In this document: in pieces, positions 5,127 to 18,962 of the stretch
How the letters are laid out: every line of letters starts with the position of its first letter
How positions within the stretch are numbered: the first letter of the stretch is position 1
The notes under the pieces: model-generated
The model's input: only the letters and a program-made list of their open reading frames with translations
Told to the model about the DNA's origin: nothing
The model's database searches: none
NCBI GenBank assembly: GCA_027596945.1
Contig: JADGJH010000397.1
Location: 1 to 19,497, forward strand
Direction of reading: 5' to 3'
DNA length: 19,497 nt
Source of the DNA: Physocladia obscura
Taxonomy: Eukaryota > Chytridiomycota > Chytridiomycetes > Chytridiales > Chytriomycetaceae
Position numbers and translations under genes: made by a program

Positions 5127-8039
5127 ATGGTAATTTGTCCTGCCAACATCGACGCTGACGTGTGGGCGAGTTTGCCGGCAGAAATTCAGCTGGAAATACA
5201 GATGCAGATGGAACTAGAACTGGCTGGGCCTGCGCGGGTGGATGGCTCAATGTGCCAATCTGCATCGGTTGCTGATTTGTCATCATTCGCAGACGTAGTT
5301 TTCGGACGAGTTCCACACAATGTCGATGCTTCTGTGTGGCGCAGTCTTCCCGACAATATCCGTGCCGAACTCTCGATCCAACCGGATTCGCAGTTAAACA
5401 CCACGCTTCAAAATACTTGGAGTCTTTCCTTCAACACCGGTCGCCGCCCTCTACTGTGCCTACCGCCCATGCTTTCCTATCAGCACAATCAGCAGAACGC
5501 ATATCGCTTTTCAGTTTCGCCACTCGCCGAAGAAATAAACGCGTCTGACCCGACCCCCTGCGCTTCTTCCACAGACCAATGGACTGACGTTGATTTCCCA
5601 CCCGACGCCTCGTCCCTTGACGGCATCAAAACCGATTCATCAATATATACAGCTGCTGAAACAAAAGCCCCATCATGCCAGTGTATACCTGCAAAACCAG
5701 CGCGGCTGAAAACTGTTTTAAAAGAAAACAAAAATCAGGTATATTTTGTCATTTAGCATAATTTTTTTTTTTTTTTACCGTTGTCGTACAAGGGCCGCAA
5801 GTTTTTTGGCTGTGCAGCATCAAAATGCAACTTTTTCTCATGGGCAGCACCAGCGCAACTTCATCATACTGCGCAAAACATATCAATTCGTTGGCAAAGA
5901 ATTCATTGGAACCCCGAAACTGAAATGAGAAAAACTCCACCACACCCTTCCCAAATTCGGCAAGGCCGTGTGGGTGATTGTTGGTTCATTTCCGCCCTCG
6001 CTGTTCTTTCCGAATCACCAGAACTCATCTCTCGCGTCTTTCCGTCGCATCAACCTCTCTCCTATAATGGCATATTTTCAACTTTTTTTTTCATTGATGG
6101 AAAATGGCGTTCAATTTACATTGACAATTACTTTGCGATATCACCACCCCCAAATTCATCGAAACGTTCCGTCGTTACCGCCTCCAGCTCTTCGTCATCA
6201 GCACTGAAATCCAACGATATAGTTCTCCACTTTTCCAAATCTGTCGCCGGAAGTCTCTGGGTGCCCATTCTCGAAAAAGCATATGCCAAAGCACATTCCA
6301 GCTACGCGGCACTCAACGGCGGATGGGTTGCAGAGGCTTTATTTGATTTAACAGGATTCCCGACATTGACAGTTGATTTCGGCGGTGTGCTGTTTAACAG
6401 TGAAAACTTTTGGGTGCGATTGATTTCATTTGCATCGCAGGGATTTTTAATGGGTGCTTCGTGTCCGGTTGGTGGCGATGGGCTTGTTGGCGGCCATGCG
6501 TATAGTGTTTTGCGAGTTGTTGAGAAGTCTGTGTGGGGAGATGAAGGTGTGACTGTTGGAAAACAACCCCAAGATTTGAGAGATTATTTTAGCAGCAGTG
6601 ATAATCATAGTAAGAGCAGCAAAAGTGGAAAGAATGGCTTTGATGAAGTGGAGGAATTTGGTGTGACAGAGAACGGGATGCTGCGATTGATTAAGTTACG
6701 AAATCCCTGGGGACGTGTTGAATGGAAAGGAAAATTTGGCATCAATAGTGCTGAAATGAATGGAGGAACTCTAAAAAAGCGGCTGAATGACGAACTAGAT
6801 TGCGAAAAAGGCAGTGAAGGTGTATTTTGGATGACATATCATGACTTTTTGCAACGGTTCATGTCTGTTGATGTTTGCTTCACTCTGAAAGATCATCAAG
6901 TTTTGAATGTAGAGAGTATTTTATCTGGTAAATTTACTTGCTCACCTATTTATACACTCACTTACGCGCTTCTATTCTATCTCTTTTGTTTCTTACTTGC
7001 TGATATTTTGATTCAGAATCGTCATCTATTGCTGAACAAGCAATTGAATTATTAGTACCAGATCCATCATGGATAAATATTTCCATCTGTCAGCGCACGA
7101 AACGCGGAAAACCAAACGAAAATTTTTACTACACAGACATCTCGATTCTTATCATTTCCATGGCCGACAACGACAATCCAGCAAACGCAGCGGCACATGT
7201 TGAAGATGTTCGTCTGTTTGGACACGGGCGTGATTCACATTTCGATCTTTTTCTTGGTGATCGTGGCAAAACACGCCGGTATTTGCTGATACCGTTTTCT
7301 ATTGAACGAGAAACCGCAAAACACGAGGCCAGTAAAAATGTATCTGGAATGACTCGAGTTGGAAGCGGTGAATGGGGACATTTGCGTAACATGGAGCTGA
7401 AGAGAGTTGAATTCACTGTCAGAATTTTAAGTGCGAATACAGTTGGTGTTTGTAAACTTGATATGAAGGAAGCCGATTTTGTTTGGAATGCATTTGACCG
7501 TGGAATTTGTGACTCTGGTTTGATAACGAGAAAAAATTCTTATGGATCTTTGAGACTGGTTTGCCAATTTTGATTCTTTTAATAGATATATATTTATTTA
7601 AAAAAAATTTATTTTGCAGACGCAAAATATCACACTTGACACGTGGTCTCAAATTATCGCTCCCGATATCGCCAGCAATCACAAAACAGAGCAATTGCAA
7701 ATTCATCCCTGGCCCAGCGACAATTTCACTTTCCGAATCCTCCAAACAACGGGAATTGCACTTGTTCATGTAACAAACACACATGCATCAATTTCTATTA
7801 AAGTAAGAATGCAACTACGCGCTGCCACAAAAACATTTAGCAGTACTGTCGCCCATGTTTGGAGAATCATTCCGCCGAAATCTCGCAAGATTGTCGGCGT
7901 GTGTGTGTGTCCTTGCAGCGAAGCGGTGTGCGGGCATGAGCTTGTATCTATTGACAATGTTGAATGGAATGGATTTTTTTCTAAAACGAGATGCGAGTGT
8001 TCTGCTGATGGAATGTTCCAGCCCTGGAATATTGAGTAA
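5127..8039 (+). CDS. UBM-UBM-GRF-calpain cysteine protease (4 exons)
   Basis: The exons are 5127-5738, 5793-6927, 7017-7558 and 7620-8039, joined in frame to 902 aa. Residues 8-24 (IDADVWASLPAEIQLEI) and 65-82 (NVDASVWRSLPDNIRAEL) are ubiquitin-binding motifs of the Rev1/Pol-iota type, with the key Leu-Pro pair in each. A Ser/Pro-rich linker follows. Residues 184-222 form a GRF zinc finger (C184, C186, C211, C216, with NQGRKFFGC and CNFFSWA). The calpain core runs from about 255 to 575 with C267 (QGRVGDCWF), H439 (GGHAYSV) and N508 (LRNPWG), so the full triad is intact. Residues about 590-760 and 764-902 are two C2-like domains. No EF-hands are present, so this is a non-classical calpain. The start has a good context (AACAATGG). 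Calpains are Ca2+-dependent cytosolic or nuclear regulatory proteases. The N-terminal modules imply recruitment to ubiquitin and single-stranded DNA, which is inference. Domain calls are by eye. Confidence 0.9.
5739..5792 (+). other. Calpain intron 1 (54 nt, phase 0)
   Basis: GTATATTTT...TACAAG with a 15-T tract before the acceptor. Splicing joins ...ENKNQ to GRKFFGC..., which restores the invariant N-x-G-R core of the GRF finger. This is strong internal evidence for the junction. Confidence 0.92.
6928..7016 (+). other. Calpain intron 2 (89 nt, phase 1)
   Basis: GTAAATTT...GATTCAG with a pyrimidine-rich 3' part. It removes a hydrophobic read-through and joins the end of the protease core to the first C2-like domain in frame. 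Confidence 0.88.
7559..7619 (+). other. Calpain intron 3 (61 nt, phase 0)
   Basis: GTTTGCC...ATTTTGCAG. It joins SLRL to TQNITLDTW between the two C2-like domains. Without splicing the frame hits TGA at once. Confidence 0.85.
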
Positions 8040-10056: not shown

Positions 10057-10114
10057 GTAAAATTAAAATTCAAATTTTTGGGATACTGCTGAAAGTCTTA
10101 TATCAAGTACGTAT

Positions 10115-13100
10115 ATGCAACAACTCACATCCACGTTACTTCTGGACAATCAAGCTAAATTTACGAGCTTCGCAGCTGAACAAAACATATCGGACAACGC
10201 TTTCACAACTAAACCCTCGCCTTCCAGCATAATTTTGCAATTTCCTTCAAGTATGATCACCAGTGGCATTCAACAGGCAACGTTCCCACAAGACATCTCT
10301 CAAAATAGCCGAATTGAGCTGCTAAATGCCATATATACATTCTCACACAATAATCCAAGTGACTCTCAATCGGAAACAAGCATTGTTGATTTGATCAACG
10401 TAATCGAGAATTTTTTTCTTGATCTAATGCCAGGAACGCTGGAATTATCTGAAAATGATTTAAACATGCTTCAGAAAGCTCTTACTGGAATGAAAAAACA
10501 CAGCCGCTTGCCAAATAAAATAAACAGGAAAGTCGTGTATCAATGGTTCCCGATATACGGATGCTGTTTGGTTGCGGAATATACGCAAGTTGGCCAAATT
10601 TCACTTGCGCTTTTATTTCCGGACGAATGGGCTCACAGCTCCTATCGCTCAAAAAATCAAGAAAATTTTGAATACTCGCAACCAAATGCAGAATCTACTG
10701 GGTTAATCGCATTTGGACAAGTTGAAAGTTGGTTATTTGAAAAGGAGTTTGATAAGTCATTTCAGGATTTGTTGGCAAAAGCGAAAGATACAAGTACTTT
10801 TCAAAGGTCTGCAGCAAACACCGGCAGAGGGCATCAAAAAACTCCCTCGTTTATTTCAAGTTTGGTAAAAGAAGCACTGCATAATATTAAAAACGCGGTT
10901 GAAAACAAAAATAACACAACTGAATTCCAACCCCTTGGCGGTACTACAGATGTTGGACTACACACAGGAGGTATGCTTTTTTCCCTTTCTCATTATATTT
11001 CTCTTATGAAATAAACTCCTATAGGAAAAAAACGCAGCACTTCTTATCAGCTGGTCTTCCACATTTTAAAATTTTTTTTGGGATCTGAAAGTACTCATTG
11101 GCGCATCATGGCTCTTCTGCATCTGCACATTCTGGAATCTCGATTAAACTGTATTGAAGTTAATAAATTAACGCAAACTGATGTTGATGAATGTAGCGTT
11201 ATCCTGAAATTTGCATCAAACAGCGTCTTGCATGTCCATGTTTCTCTTAAAATCTCTGTTTTGTCAGAGGTGGAACAGATTAAATTGCTACAATCTCGTC
11301 TGGAAAATTTTATCAAAGAATTTGTTTGTTTCAACTCTGCTAAGCTTCCTTATGAACTCGTTAACTTTCGGCCTGCGAATATTTTACCTGAGCCAAATTT
11401 TTTGAAGGTCAGCGTTGCCAAAGATGCGGCAGAGGTCATTGAAGCTCGCCGAAACGAGAATATTGGTATTTGAAAACCTTCATTTCTCTCATAACTGTGA
11501 CTCACTCTTTGTTAATTGCAGGGTTGATTGCTTTAATGTCAAAAGCTTATGATTCATTTGATTCTTTGTTGAGCTGGATTCAGATTACCATCAGTATCAA
11601 AAGTGGTGTGAATAGAAATCAACAAATTCTTTTTGTCATTCGCAGCATTGAAGCTTTCATCTTCCAACGAGCTGAACATTTAAAAGAAAACTGCTATGCA
11701 ATGGAAGTAACATCAATAAAGGAGGTTGTGATTGAATATCAGCAATGCATGAACGAGTGGCTCTCTGTTTCGATCAGTAAATCAAATATGCATGTTATAG
11801 AGCAAAGTCATCAGGCTCTTGTTGTCGGGATTGCTGCTTGTCTTATGCACAAACGTAACTGTGGTGAATTTAAAATGCTGAATGATTATGCAATTCCGCT
11901 TGATTGGCAAAGTTTGGAGCCTTTGGTGGTAAAGGACAAAGTCGCTTTGGATGCTTTACTAATTTTGAAACATTATTTGAATTGCGCATCAAAAGAAAAA
12001 CATCGGGTTATTTTTTCGCTCGAAAATTGTAACGATACATTTCAATTTGCATTTGATTACGCCTCTGCCAACTCTGAAATAATAAATCGATGGAATTGGG
12101 AATGTCATGCTGCTGAAGAAAGAAAAAATGAATACGCCAGGCAATTAAAAACCAAAAAAATTGAGCTTATTGAATTGAGAAGAAGCCTTGACACAGAATT
12201 GAGTGAATTGGAGGATCTTGAATGCGAAAAAGAACAGCTGGTACAAGACGGTGAATCATATCACAGAAAACAATTGAACAAAAAAGAAATTCGCCAAAAA
12301 ACTGCAACGATTTCAAGGTTAATGACTATGAATTAGAAATTTGAGAATATGATGAGTAAAATCAGCTTCTTTTTTTTTTTTGATTTTAGATTAAGACAAG
12401 CAATAATTGTCGCAAACACGCCACCCCATTTCGTTAAAAATCCTCTTCCGGCCACAAAATCGAGCGCAATCACAGTCCTTTTTTTTGCAATGATGCCCTT
12501 ACCATTAAATATAATGTCGGAATTATTCGTTTTTTCAAAAAAGGCGTTCACAAATAGTTGGTCAATTCCTGTTGCTTCACAAGGTACTTCATGGCTTTCT
12601 CATTACGTGTCTTTGGAAAAAAGAAAGCTTTTTCAAGCAAGTCACTTTATGATATATGCTGTTCCTTTGTCTATGCCAAATTCAGTTGGCGCATCAACAG
12701 TCGACCAAATTCATTCTCCGTGTGTTTGGCATCCGTCAAATTTTGTCAACTTCATGTTTTTACCGTGCAAAACCAATCCATGGAAAGTTCAAAGAACCAA
12801 AATTCTTGAATCATTCACCGAAAAACTTCCACCTACAGCACACAAAACTTTTAAATGGGCAATCGAATTTCCAAGCCAATCTGACCAAAAATGTTCACGT
12901 GGAAATACGTTATTTACAAAAATGGACGCAATACCGCCTAAATTTTTTCAAAAGGATTTTCAAACTTTAAGTTCGCTACGATCATTTCCTCTGGAACAAG
13001 TTCGGAAGATTACAACACAAATTCTTCGCGATAAAAATTTTCCTTTGGACAATTCGGATTTAATCACGTTGATCAAGCAAGCCATGTATCAGATTGGAGA

Positions 13101-16100
13101 AATTTCTGAATCGTCAGAATTTATTTGGAAAACCGAACTTTTTAAATCTGATGGAGGCGAGAAAATGCTTTTTGAGTTGAAAAAGCACTCTGAATTGCTA
13201 ATTCCAGCACCAAGAAATTACAAATACTTGAATATTCTTGCAGATTTGACTTCATATCTTGGTCAATATATCGGTGAAGACGCCGCAAATTTAAGTAGAA
13301 AATTTTCAAAAATTGCTTCTGATTGGGCAAAAGATGTTCGACTGGATTCAGAAGAAAATCCACCTTCCTCAACCAAAGCACTTTTGGAAATGAAAGCAAA
13401 GGAGTGCATGTTTAATGCATATTCAATTTTTTGCCTTTCTCATTTGCCAAAATTGAACAATAATGATGTGGCAAATATTTGCGAGATGCTTGCAAGATTT
13501 TTTAATGGGCGAATTTTTGCTAATGACAGTTCTATTCATCAAGAAATTTCCATGCTGGAAGTACATATTCAAAATATTATGGCAAGAAGAATCTCTGAAA
13601 TTTTATTGAAAGTTACACCGAGGATCATCACAGCAGCAGTTCAATCTGTTTTGGGCAGTTTGACTATTTCAAAGACCGCAGTTTGGAATAAGTATGGTAC
13701 AAGTAGTTGTTTTGATTCTGATATTGATGGTTGCATGTATTCCTTTAATGTTTTGACCGGATGCCTACTCATTGACGGAATGCCTCCTGGAAGACTTCCA
13801 GAAAGCATTCTAAACAATGAACTGTACAAAAAACATTTCAAATCACGCAACTTCCAGGTAAAATACATTTATTTATTCTTTTCAAAAATTGAAAATATTT
13901 CAGGTTCAAAAAATTGGATCCATCCTAAAAACTTCAGATCCATTGGACGACAAGCTTTATGAATTTGCGCTACTTAAATCTATATTGCTCATTCGCGAAA
14001 TTGATGTGAACACAGGAACAACTCTTGAACTGATTGATTTCAATTCAGGCCACATCAAATGGTGGTCAGAATTGCCAATTAGACTTCAAAAATTACATTC
14101 ACACTGGTATTGTGCTGAAAAACGGGCGTTGATAATGCGAGGGATTGAAATATTGGATAAATCAATTAGCCATATCGCGTTTTGGAATAACAGTGAAGTA
14201 GGATTTTGTTTTGAGGTGGAATCCCATGACAAGGCAAATACTATAGCCGAGCTTGAAAAAAAAAAAAAAGATATGGAATACTTTGCATATTTTTCCGCTC
14301 CAATTTTTGAAAGAATTGAGCTCCAAGAATTTGTGCATACAATGTCAACATCTACAGGAAAGGCTTTGGTCCACTTGCCTCGATTCAATTTGAGATTTAT
14401 CCAATCTACCAACAATTTCAGATTCGAATCTCAACAATACCGAAACTTTTATCTTCGGGTTGATCAACAGCTGGATAATTTTGCGTTACCATTTTTCAAC
14501 CAATACTTGATTCTTTGTCCTTCTGAAAATTCATCGGAAAATATGAAAATAATTGTTCAAGATGGAGAAATTGGCTCCAATTTGCGGATTAAAATATCAT
14601 CAAACTATCAAGAAGTGATCCATCATATTTGCTTTCATATTTCTCCATTTCTCAGAACAATTGTTGCAAACAAAGTCTCAGATCGTCTCCAACTGGCTTC
14701 GATATTCGCAGCAACTGGCACGCTGGCTCGGGATTTAGCCTATCATTTAACTGGAGGGGAATTGGCAATTGAAATGATACGACAATCTTGGACTGGACGT
14801 TCATTAAGTGAAGTCGAAGTGAAAAAGCTGAAAAATGTTGTGACATTTGCTTATCGTGAACCAGCTCTGACCGTTATTTGCGGACATATCAAGTATTTTT
14901 CGGAAAGGTGTTTTTACTTGCGAGGCAGCTCTGTCAACCCTGTGGACTTATCTGAATTTGATTGCATGGTTGTAAATGCAACAACCCAGTTCAAAAAAAC
15001 GGAAGGATTGGATATTAATCCACGTCGGCATTTAACTACATTAGAGCGTATTCCGCAACTTGGTAATCCATTTCAAAAATTCGTTAGTCCTTTCATGAAA
15101 ACAGTATCTTTCAGTTGCCCTGCTGTTTCAGAAAACTTCATCCACGACATGGAACAAGCTCAATTAGATTTAGTTAACTTCATTGAAAATGAACAAATTG
15201 GTGAATATCCTCTGATTTCACCTGAAAATAAGAGTGTATTGGATTCTGTCGTTCACGAAGAGTTGAAAAAAAGCTGGGAAAAACATGCGATTCAAAAGAA
15301 TGCGTCAATTTCTGCAGAAAACCTCACCTTACTTGTAATATTGCTTGATAAGCAGAAAAAACAGGCTTCGAACCAGTATTATATTTTGGAAAACTGCTTG
15401 ATCAAATCTTTTGAAGCTCAACAGACCGAGCACATTTTGCTTGCCATAGCCAACAATCTCCCGAAAGTAACTCGGTCAGACTTTCTTCGCATGGCGCTGG
15501 ACAAGACCTTAATTCAAAAATTTAATCCATTTTTGATTGATATCGAGGTCTCGGATATCTTTTGCGCAATTTTGACGTTGCTTCAAATTGTTGTTTTTGA
15601 AGAGAGGTTGACGAGAATTCATCGGTTGATTACAGCAAATAACATTCCGGCCCTTCTTAAAGAAATTTTTGTTCGAGAATGGAGCGTTGAAAATAATCCT
15701 ACTTGGCTGGTGTTTGAAGTTGAAGGTATAAAAACTCTATCAGAAAATAGAATTAATTTAAGTAGTATTTAAATTTGCACACAGGGGAGCTTCAAATTCG
15801 ACCAAATCAGTATTCTGTAGCACGTCAACTTATAAACAACCCAAGATCAATTGTTCAGCTGAATATGGGAGAAGGAAAGACCAGAGTAATCATCCCCATG
15901 ATTGTCAGTAAATGCATCTCTGAAAGTCAGAATGAGAGCAATCTGGTGCCCAAGCAAAGTCTGGTAATTCGCGTAAACGTTTTAACTCAACTCTTCCAAG
16001 AAGCTGGAGAGCATCTTCACAGTACGTTAACTGCCAGCGCATTGGGCATAAAATTTTGTGAATTTCCTTTTCATCGCCAAATACCTCTTAACCTCGAAAA

Positions 16101-18962
16101 AGTTGAAATAATGGAAGAGTTGATAACTATCATGCAGCAAAATTCTGGATTCATACTGTCAGCACCAGAACATCAATTGTCTCTTAAACTAAAACAGCAA
16201 GAAAGTGCTAAAAGCAACTTAAAGCTGGCAGATTATTTGACAGATTTTGCAGGAAAAATCGGATATTACGATATTATCGATGAATCTGACGCTTTTCTTT
16301 CGCACAAATATCAGATGATTTACGCAGTCGGAATTCAAGAAAAATTGCCCCAAGGAAGTGAAAGATGGACGGTTATTCATGCAGTCCTTCACATTATGAA
16401 TATCAGCGAAAAATTGAAAAAATTGAGCGCAGATTCAAAATTTATGACCTATTCCAAGCTTACCACAACTTCTCACTTCAAGCATATTCGACTGAGTCAA
16501 AATATTTCTGGTTCTACTAGTCAGGAAAGATTTTTGAAAGATTTTTGCACAACTCTTCTTTCTGAATTGGTTGATAATTTACCTGAAGAGATGAAATGGA
16601 TTGATGAGGTTGCAGAAAAATATCCAGTCTTCAAAGAGAACGTTAAAATTTGCACATTAAACCTAAGTAAAGAGATGGACTCGATGTTTAAGCAGTATGA
16701 TTTGAATGAAACGCAAGCTTCGCAATTGCTAATGCTCCGTGGATTATTCGGGTATCACTTGTTGGAGCACTGTTTGTCAATGCGTCACGCTGCTAATTAT
16801 GGAATAGACAAAAACCGCAAAAAAAGAGTTGCTGTTCCTTATACTGCTGTTGATTCCCCATCTGCAAGATCGGAATATAGCCACCCTGATGTGTGCATCA
16901 TTCTAACATCGCTTTCTTACTATCATATTGGTCTAACAGGCAATCAGTTGAAAGAAGCATTTGAAACCTTGCTTAGAAGAGGTCTTTATTTATTTTCCTT
17001 TATAGTAAGAACTAAATACTGAAGAGAAAAAAAACAAAAACAAAAATAGCTATTGGAGAGCAAAAATTCTATTACACGGCATGGTTTGCCCAAGTAAAAA
17101 CGGATCTTAATGAAGCACAATCTGCATCAATTGACAGCATTGAAAAAATTGATCTTACAAATACGACCCAATTTGCAACAATTATCACAGTGTTTGCCAA
17201 AGCTTTGCTTGTAGTCAACTTTTGGCTCGAATTTTGTGTATACCCAACTGACACAAAACTTTATTCTGAGAGAATTTGTGCAAGTGCATGGGATCTTGCT
17301 GCTGCACCAAAAGTTGTTGGTTTCAGTGGAACAAATGACGATCAATATTTGCTGCCAGGTCAAGTGCGTCAGACCGATCCTGATGACTTAGTTTTAATGG
17401 GCACAAATGGGTTGATGCTTGATAAAATCTTAAGCACAGTTATTTCGTATCGAGTTTTGAATCCAAACTCCCAACTATTTCCTGAACTCGCAGATATTTG
17501 TGTCGAATTGCATGCAAGTGCATTAATTGATACTGGCTGCATTCTTGCAGGCACCTCCAATCAAGAATTCGCAAACACAATGAGAAAAAAGCTCAAAGAA
17601 CACAAAACTGACTGCGTAAAGTTCTTGGGAATTCTTTACTTTGATCTTTCCGAAAATAAGTGGATTGTTCTTGAATTACAAACAGGAAAACGTACCCCAG
17701 AATTATGGAGTCCGATTCTTGCGAAAACTTGTTTCACAATTTTTGATGACGCTCGTACCCGTGGAGTCGACAAGAAATTAGAGCAAAATGCAACAGCTGT
17801 TCTAACTCTTGGACCTCGGTTGAATAAAGGAAAACTGATGCAAGGAGCGGGAAGAATGAGAGGACTCGGTGTCAATGGACAGAAATTGTATCTTGTTGGA
17901 AGTTTGGAAGTTGATCACAGTATTCGTCAGCATCGAATTCAAAAAGACAGCAGGCGTAATATTGATGTAAAAGAAGTGCTAAATTGGGTATTGGAGAATA
18001 ACAAAGATGATTTAAAGAATGGATTGAGTCAATGGGCTTTGCAAGGGATGCATTTTGAGGCTTGTGTGCAAAATCCTACAAAAATCGTGGTTAAAGATGA
18101 CTGGAGCTTAAAAAGCTTGTATTGCTCAAACAGAAAAGCAATTAAATTGGCCGAATCAGTTCGAAGAATATCTGAATCACGTGTGGAGAAACCGTCGGCC
18201 TTTGTTGATTTTATTTGCACACAAACTGCGTGGTTGGGTCAGGAAGTTGAGGTTTCATCAAGTCAGCATACCGAAGAATGTGAGCGAGAGCTACAAGAGG
18301 AAGTTGAAGAAATCAAAGAACATGTGCAGGAAACGCTATCTTATGAATCAATAATTGAAGAACCTTGGGACGTATTTCAATGCTGGACAGAAAATTTTTT
18401 GAGTCAGAGCTCATCAAAGATTCAGAGATTGGATTCTCAGATTTTTCAAGCTTTTGGAATTATCGAACTTGACAATTTAAACTGGAATATGGGATCTGTA
18501 TTTGGAACTAAAAACTTCTTCAAAACAGTTTTGCCAACCTCTGGGCGAATGGACGCACAATTTTTAAGACTAATTGATTCGTTTGTATACTACAAAAAGC
18601 ACAAAAGGATTTTACTACTTTCCGAAATGGAAGCCAACGCTCTTCTCCGGCAAATTTGGAGCAGGGATTTACAACCATCAGACGTTATTTACAGTAATCT
18701 TAGTGACGTTCGCTTCTCGCATGACAATCGCCAAATTCGGCACCCGCTTATTTCATTTGTCTTGATTATGATTATGCAAATTTTTAACGGCGAGACAAAA
18801 TTTAGCAATATCGAGCCAACAGATGAAATGATGGAAGAATTGAAAAGCTTTACGTGTAAACGAAATTCAAAAATTGCAATTAAGATGCTTGTGACTGCCA
18901 GAGGACGTGAAACTGAATGGGGGTTTTCGCAGTTGAAAAAAGTTTGCGAAAGGATGTATTGA
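10115..18962 (+). CDS. Giant DUF3638/DUF3645 protein, helicase-like ATPase (7 exons)
   Basis: The exons are 10115-10970, 11025-11465, 11522-12317, 12390-13857, 13904-15725, 15785-16981 and 17050-18962. They sum to 2830 codons without an internal stop, slightly shorter than the roughly 3000-residue fungal relatives. Residues 630-697 form a coiled coil. Family landmarks are LRSFPLEQVRKI (894-905) and GCLLIDGMPPGRLPES (about 1155). DUF3638 starts near 1796 with QLNMGEGKT (Walker A-like, G1823-T1827), then FILSAPEHQLS and IIDESD (D1960-D1963). DUF3645 is SEYSHPDVCIILTSLSYY (from 2157). GFSGTN (2284-2289) and LMQGAGRMRGLG (about 2456-2467) follow, then an acidic coiled segment near 2600. The order matches superfamily-2 helicase motifs I, II and VI, so ATP-driven remodelling of nucleic acid or protein is inferred. 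Related proteins are often labelled ubiquitin thioesterase without a visible Cys protease. The start at 10115 is the first in-frame ATG after a stop; M47 (10253) has a better context. The family call is strong; function is unknown. Confidence 0.92.
10971..11024 (+). other. DUF3638 gene intron 1 (54 nt, phase 1)
   Basis: GTATGCTTTT...CCTATAG. It joins LHTGG to KKRSTSYQLV in frame; unspliced, the frame stops at 11014. Confidence 0.88.
11466..11521 (+). other. DUF3638 gene intron 2 (56 nt, phase 1)
   Basis: GTATTTGAAAA...TTAATTGCAG. It joins RRNENIG to LIALMSKAY in frame, and the unspliced frame ends at TGA at once. Confidence 0.88.
12318..12389 (+). other. DUF3638 gene intron 3 (72 nt, phase 2)
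   Basis: GTTAATGAC...TGATTTTAG with a run of 12 T before the acceptor. It joins TATISR to LRQAIIVANT after the coiled coil, in frame. Confidence 0.87.
13858..13903 (+). other. DUF3638 gene intron 4 (46 nt, phase 0)
   Basis: GTAAAATAC...ATATTTCAG, the shortest intron in the window. It joins SRNFQ to VQKIGSILKTS, continuing a conserved family segment. Confidence 0.9.
14256..14269. repeat. 14-A homopolymer inside coding exon 5
   Basis: The run of A encodes the end of a Glu codon and four Lys (ELEKKKKDM). The frame stays correct with exactly 14 A, so any length error in a read would break the gene model. It is a potential slippage site. Confidence 0.95.
15726..15784 (+). other. DUF3638 gene intron 5 (59 nt, phase 1)
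   Basis: GTATAAAAAC...TGCACACAG. It joins VFEVEG to ELQIRPNQYS, directly ahead of the Walker A-like motif. The unspliced frame ends at TAA 15770-15772. Confidence 0.9.
16982..17049 (+). other. DUF3638 gene intron 6 (68 nt, phase 1)
   Basis: GTCTTTATT...CAAAAATAG. It gives ETLLRR-A-IGEQKFYYTAW in frame. The donor GTCTTT is not ideal. An alternative uses the stronger GTAAGA at 17005 with an acceptor ending at 17060; it is also in frame and would replace the short segment at the junction. Confidence 0.65.

Follow-up and report, generated by a model that had tools for sequence, protein, structure and literature searches.

Results and Discussion

Gene model and domain architecture

In the window, by which we mean the whole analysed stretch of 19,497 nucleotides from the Chytridiales chytrid Physocladia obscura, splicing of four exons on the forward strand (Table 1) gives 902 codons and a stop, with all three introns being of the GT..AG type (54, 89 and 61 nt). 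A protein search showed the spliced product to be identical to the deposited Physocladia obscura protein P0001. The original prediction of two ubiquitin-binding motifs (UBM), a GRF zinc finger and a calpain core within one spliced reading frame is confirmed. The residue numbers given there for the catalytic triad (C267, H439, N508) and for the start of the GRF finger (C184) were also correct. The GRF finger is split by intron 1 after Q204 and resumes with G205, so that it is intact only when exons 1 and 2 are joined. The calpain core scores 184.5 bits in Pfam, above the cut-off, with all three catalytic residues present, and the predicted structure of the protein has a mean pLDDT of 70.2. The deposited name 'Calpain-type cysteine protease dek1 [Physocladia obscura]' looks misleading judged by sequence similarity, as the closest proteins among the matches listed are GRF-calpains, followed by the SOL/CAPN15 family with about 26–33% identity. 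DEK1 is characterised by a long transmembrane N-terminus, and the N-terminus of the 902-aa protein carries the UBMs and the GRF finger.

Table 1: Features of the calpain gene in the window; the 48 representatives are described in the section on the GRF finger.
Feature	Position	Strand	Residues and remarks
Exon 1	5127..5738	+	1-204; open frame with GT donor at 5739; covers both UBMs, a linker and the GRF finger's first half
UBM 1	5136..5207	+	4-27; CPANIDADVWASLPAEIQLEIQMQ
UBM 2	5307..5381	+	61-85; RVPHNVDASVWRSLPDNIRAELSIQ
GRF zinc finger, first half	5676..5738	+	184-204; CxC; Pfam Zn_ribbon_GRF
Intron 1	5739..5792	+	54 nt, GT..AG; interrupts GRF finger
Exon 2	5793..6927	+	from 205 into codon 583 (first base); rest of the GRF finger and calpain core
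GRF zinc finger, second half	5793..5846	+	205-222; GRKFFGC...CNFFSW
Calpain catalytic core (Peptidase_C2)	5871..6878	+	231-566
Catalytic Cys267	5979..5981	+	kept in 48/48 representatives
Catalytic His439	6495..6497	+	kept in 48/48 representatives
Core insertion loop	6507..6698	+	443-506; 64 aa, between GHAYS and RNPWG
Degenerate PIP-box-like motif	6564..6590	+	462-470; QPQDLRDYF, inside core loop
Catalytic Asn508	6702..6704	+	kept in 47/48 representatives, one gap
Exon 3	7017..7558	+	583-763; bulk of calpain domain III / C2-like domain
Exon 4	7620..8039	+	764-902 and stop; second beta-rich domain, strands in predicted model

The relatives of P0001 were taken from two protein searches with at least 228 proteins, using the best 120 of each, and the extent of the family given here is a lower bound. 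Proteins P0018–P0120 served as control set, which is mostly, though not wholly, of the SOL/CAPN15 type and highly redundant.

Candidate ubiquitin-binding motifs

The two N-terminal motifs are candidate ubiquitin readers. In the Pfam check the GRF finger and the calpain core of the original prediction passed their cut-offs and the UBMs did not: UBM 1 reached 14.0 bits against a cut-off of 23.3 (PF14377), and UBM 2 was not reported in the Pfam scan of P0001. A profile built from 16 chytrid UBM copies, in all of which Trp, Leu and Pro are invariant, gave 43.1 bits on UBM 1 and 40.7 bits on UBM 2, both of which belong to its training set. In the predicted model the helices 10-15 and 18-32 flank the Leu-Pro of UBM 1 and the helices 68-73 and 76-82 that of UBM 2. 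Searched against the PDB, the same profile returned 18 matches at E ≤10 (best E 1.4e-5), the top 13 belonging to Pol iota, REV1 and HUWE1, a result that supports the reading of the motifs as UBMs.

Applied to 239 proteins, the profile matched P0229, P0226, P0164, P0121, P0238, P0158 and P0156 outside its training set (E 3e-12 to 0.0053), with the next match at E 0.82, so that no member of the control set (103 proteins) gave a better E value. P0226 is a second copy from Obelidium, and P0158 and P0156 are from Rhodosorus, the match to P0156 being weak (10.3 bits, E 0.0053). Of ten further proteins, seven were matched by the Pfam UBM model at E ≤1, the best at 2.6e-4 and all of them short of the cut-off, and the other three gave nothing at this threshold; the UBM is sub-threshold in every scanned protein where Pfam reports one. 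A UBM search of the Physocladia obscura genome at E ≤1 did not recover the window gene; its three matches all lie on a single different contig. No UBA domain was matched in P0001 by Pfam at E ≤10, with HMMER filters that drop most weak matches, and UBMs are found instead. From these sequence features we regard binding of ubiquitin by the window protein as quite likely.

The same domain order was found in relatives. At least one UBM segment is present in 10 of 11 chytrid proteins (P0001–P0010 and P0012), the sole exception P0004 beginning downstream of the UBM region, and nine of the 11 (P0001–P0009) have a GRF finger by profile. The order also recurs outside this set, and a red alga is among the cases, with a weaker UBM: the Rhodosorus marinus entry P0156, which stems from the transcriptome project MMETSP, combines GRF finger, calpain core and PIP box in one sequence.

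GRF zinc finger

The GRF finger of P0001 scores 41.6 bits with Zn_ribbon_GRF (Pfam cut-off 25.9). Its best solved relatives are the NEIL3 chains 7omk and 7jl5 (E 5.1e-12 and 2.6e-11), and 5u6z, a chain named AP-site lyase and corresponding to the APE2 finger, follows with E 0.0076. We compared 48 representatives, obtained by clustering at 60% and selected for having a GRF match. The four cysteines are kept in 48/48, partly by choice due to this selection, Gly205 is found in 47/48 and Arg206 in 44/48, the remaining 4/48 having Lys. We regard nucleic-acid binding by the window protein as likely. A GRF search of the Physocladia obscura genome gave three matches, all below threshold and including exon 2 of the window gene itself (22.2 bits), and therefore says nothing either way about further GRF genes.

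The GRF-calpain family and its relation to CAPN15

The original prediction could point to no described calpain of this architecture, yet it is not without precedent. The combination of Zf_GRF and calpain core was already tabulated by Zhao in 2012 (PMC3563603), the architecture UBA_4~zf_GRF~pC2 was reported for Ostreococcus tauri and Micromonas by Rawlings in 2015 (PMC4631099), the published members include green algae, a cryptophyte and others (PMC3563603, PMC4631099), and a paper from 2026 treats Zf-GRF calpains of Phytophthora, Ostreococcus and, as predicted, Rhodosorus in the context of cytokinesis. The published proteins resemble the window protein in having the GRF finger ahead of the calpain core, some of them with a ubiquitin-binding module, but the window protein carries tandem UBMs where those of Ostreococcus and Micromonas have a UBA. 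The passages available from PMC3563603 and PMC4631099 mention neither a DNA-repair role nor a PIP box for GRF-calpains.

A local profile detected the GRF finger in 104 of the 125 proteins outside the control set among the matches listed. Members with the finger include the diatoms Epithemia, Mayamaea, Cylindrotheca and Fistulifera, the haptophyte Prymnesium, the red alga Rhodosorus and chytrids, and with this profile no finger was detected in the listed dinoflagellate Cladocopium and thraustochytrid Hondaea. Among the Pfam readers found in the 48 representatives at E ≤0.1 are UBA_4 (14), CUE (4), UBA_8 (3), UBM (3), UIM (2) and PBZ (1), counts in which overlaps are unresolved and several matches are weak. 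Protein P0164 unites UBM, GRF finger, the loop motif QSKIRSFF and the calpain core, and P0121 and P0229 likewise combine UBM, GRF finger, loop PIP box and calpain core. By eye, the latter two also show acid-flanked stretches resembling SUMO motifs, together with a LARELQ sequence and an additional ITDFF. P0017 is a GRF-calpain with a UBA-like match and a Smr domain (PF01713).

Sequence evidence for the originally proposed ubiquitin-guided, DNA-linked protease is good, and it becomes stronger with the relatives, where UBM, UBA, UIM and PBZ stand beside the GRF finger and most tested non-chytrid proteins have a PIP box. The idea of a ubiquitin-directed calpain as such is not new, since mammalian CAPN15 was shown to be a ubiquitin-directed calpain that cuts the membrane protein E-cadherin and needs its ubiquitin-binding fingers for this (PMC12805371). 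CAPN15/SOL and the window protein share a calpain core and N-terminal ubiquitin readers, predicted in the latter, but CAPN15/SOL has NZF fingers where the window protein has UBMs and a GRF finger, and its core loop is short and lacks a PIP box. Neither NZF/RanBP2 fingers (PF00641, E ≤10) nor PF26741 were matched by Pfam in P0001; the latter, which we took as the SOL-homology domain from its position in CAPN15 rows, may be lacking in the Pfam copy used.

CAPN15 sets a precedent for a calpain guided by ubiquitin, which speaks for the reading that we favour below. Alternatively, the window protein could itself work like CAPN15, as a ubiquitin-directed calpain trimming ubiquitylated proteins in the cytoplasm or at membranes, its GRF finger being a structural or RNA contact with no role at DNA. 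The similarity to SOL/CAPN15, the ubiquitin dependence of CAPN15 and the missing canonical PIP box of the window protein all fit this explanation. We nevertheless consider it rather unlikely, as the control set is short-looped and has the GRF finger in 0/103 and a loop PIP box in 0/101 proteins, and as a quick tree, built from 76 catalytic domains with the loop left out, separates 15 SOL rows from the 61 others by a branch with SH-aLRT 99 (no bootstrap). P0001 lies across this branch and does not cluster with the SOL calpains. Furthermore, precomputed annotation lists PBZ (PF10283), a poly-ADP-ribose-binding domain and another type of damage-signal reader, in the three GRF-calpains P0198, P0213 and P0221, all with a short core loop. 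The GRF label needs seven changes on the quick tree because members without a detected finger fall inside the clade, and P0021 and P0022, which belong to the control set and in which no loop was found, are grouped with the GRF clade.

A possible link between the GRF and SOL/CAPN15 branches is P0218, which combines a GRF match, the loop motif QPTLDAFF and an AEVIDLT stretch with a CxxC..CxxC finger at its N-terminus that by eye resembles RanBP2/NZF. In the control set P0025 and P0027 show N-terminal stretches that resemble SUMO motifs (for example VVDLTQDD), and judged by such motifs some SOL-type calpains may read SUMO too.

A PIP box in the core loop

The catalytic core of GRF-calpains contains an insertion between GHAYS and RNPWG with a median length of 54 residues, compared to 15 in the control set. 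A canonical PIP box follows the rule Q-x-x-[ILMV]-x-x-[FY]-[FY], and among the matches listed, 60 of the 91 GRF-calpain loops contain it, where shuffling each loop predicts 0.083; it is absent from all 101 control loops, which are mostly of the SOL/CAPN15 type. The motif was first seen by eye in 15 sequences of one alignment and counted afterwards, and without these 15 the count is 55/76. It persists after clustering at 90% (50/80), 70% (38/59), 60% (25/40) and 50% (11/18), and 57 of the 60 canonical motifs are found at the same loop offset. Beyond the loop the motif occurs six times in 79,921 residues, although three of these cases are in fact the same loop, which the finder had failed to recognise; the control set has it once in 106,447 residues. 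The loop finder missed 13 of the 104 GRF proteins, which are excluded from the 60/91 and of which P0149, P0206 and P0218 carry the loop motif. In five of the 13, namely P0192, P0195, P0198, P0213 and P0221, the loop is short or missing.

In 39 representatives the column information amounts to 2.92 bits for Gln, 1.29 for the hydrophobic position and 2.30 and 2.89 for the two aromatics, with Lys, Thr and Asp being favoured between the conserved positions and 0.4–1.0 bits in the twelve columns that follow. The strand directly preceding the motif is likewise conserved.

The motif is degenerate in the window protein, where Gln is misplaced (QPQDLRDYF or PQDLRDYF) and the predicted model has a short helix at 466-471. 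Non-canonical loops are also found in nine of the ten other chytrid relatives tested, the strictly canonical exception being P0005; P0012 ends in Phe-Leu, and accepting this ending lowers the number to eight of ten. A remnant of the form hydrophobic-x-[DEN]-[FY]-[FYL] is nevertheless kept in 9/11 chytrid proteins versus 0.35 expected. Judged by this motif, PCNA binding by the window protein itself is uncertain, and we would sooner doubt than assume it.

The loop peptide might also act mainly as a PIP degron, by which CRL4-Cdt2 would destroy the PCNA-bound enzyme in S phase, so that PCNA would limit and not recruit the protease. A PIP degron has Thr-Asp at motif positions 5-6, and this pair is found in 32 of the 60 canonical motifs, but only 6/60 combine it with a basic residue at +4, and 10 of the 11 chytrid forms are non-canonical, which makes a degron improbable as the main function. 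Equally improbable is that the UBM- and PIP-like stretches are structural or arose by chance, leaving a GRF-calpain with nucleic-acid-linked targets and no tie to ubiquitin or PCNA: the motifs are short, the UBM stays below the Pfam cut-off throughout and short-motif scans can mislead, since a loose SUMO pattern fires in 52/103 control N-termini, but the UBM profile retrieves known UBM proteins as its top PDB matches, the PIP box exceeds its expectation by far, and the reversed motif and an Asn-for-Gln motif each gave 0/91 in the same loops.

According to PMC6356670, REV1 has UBMs and lacks a PIP box, and a UBM-led GRF-calpain without the canonical motif is therefore not odd. Within the literature searched, the link between calpains and a PIP box, which the original prediction had overlooked, is apparently unpublished, and we found no paper uniting calpains with a PIP box or with crosslink repair in this search, which covered part of the matches.

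Proposed function and comparison with crosslink proteases

The explanation that we favour, with a probability of about 0.58, is that the window gene encodes a ubiquitin-guided, ssDNA-binding and ancestrally PCNA-linked protease that would work like SPRTN or Wss1 with an unrelated protease fold. Ubiquitin on a chromatin protein would be recognised by the tandem UBMs, the target being for instance PCNA in its ubiquitylated form or a ubiquitylated protein trapped on DNA. The GRF finger would grip exposed single-stranded nucleic acid, most probably ssDNA, and cleavage of the tagged protein would fall to the calpain core with its intact active site. Many relatives would, in addition, use the PIP box of the catalytic-domain insertion for docking on PCNA. 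In the chytrid branch the leading Gln would have been lost and the hydrophobic-x-acid-aromatic-aromatic part mostly kept, and this branch may rely more on ubiquitin. Such an enzyme would be located in the nucleus and would clear proteins from damaged or replicating DNA.

In the literature SPRTN (DVC1/Spartan) is described with a PIP box, a ubiquitin-binding UBZ and DNA dependence, and at the family level GRF-calpains appear to share with it the combination of protease, ubiquitin binding, DNA binding and PIP box. SPRTN, however, is a SprT metalloprotease with UBZ, whereas GRF-calpains are calpain-fold cysteine proteases with UBM or UBA, and unlike in SPRTN their PIP box lies inside the catalytic domain. 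Neither a SprT-like metalloprotease domain nor a UBZ was matched by Pfam in P0001. The literature also describes SIMs in Wss1 and a SIM replacing the PIP box in some Spartan relatives, which is the same kind of swap as suggested for the UBM-led GRF-calpains. Wss1/WLM proteases resemble GRF-calpains in combining motifs that bind small modifiers with a DNA-linked protease, which is DNA-activated in Wss1, but they are SUMO-directed metalloproteases and are separately present in the Physocladia obscura genome. The polymerases REV1 and DNA polymerase iota have UBMs of the same sequence type as the window protein and are not proteases.

A six-frame search of the assembly that ignores introns found PCNA and two matches to WLM (Wss1-type) proteases (G000:C80 26011-26484 and G000:C595 10458-10907, the latter with a stop codon inside) and no SprT-like match. 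The two WLM matches could already serve the crosslink job and speak against our favoured reading, as do the missing canonical PIP box in the window protein and most of its chytrid relatives, the sub-threshold UBMs, the fact that the CAPN15 substrate is membrane E-cadherin and not DNA, and a conceivable role of GRF fingers in RNA binding or protein contacts. The known proteases for DNA-protein crosslinks include the SprT/WLM metalloproteases and the proteasome. We infer a role at such crosslinks for GRF-calpains from their parts, and for the window gene crosslink repair is plausible, if tentative. On sequence grounds the description of the family as ubiquitin-reading calpains with an ssDNA finger and a predicted PCNA link is well founded. 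It is a more doubtful, though possible, step to see in GRF-calpains an unrecognised multi-lineage class of replication-coupled, PCNA-docked crosslink proteases directed by ubiquitin and perhaps SUMO, in which docking of the loop could gate activity.

If GRF-calpains do clear DNA-protein crosslinks, diatoms, red algae, haptophytes and chytrids would have a calpain-class cysteine protease alongside the known crosslink proteases, and the convergence on ubiquitin reader, ssDNA finger and PCNA peptide would show the requirements of such an enzyme. The conserved short loop peptide, which is predicted to bind PCNA, offers a direct test of the family claim.

Surroundings in the window

Upstream of the calpain gene, three frames on the forward strand at 1547-2738 resemble a mobile-element integrase by eye (QSDNGSEFLGEF..), and a Pfam scan of the first of them gave nothing relevant. 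Downstream, a run of long open frames extends from 10067 to 18962 on the same strand. The other four frames scanned in this run gave nothing significant in Pfam, and the frame at 15766-17022 contains DUF3638 (PF12340, 163.4 bits) and DUF3645 (PF12359, 59.3 bits); the whole run is probably one very large multi-exon gene.
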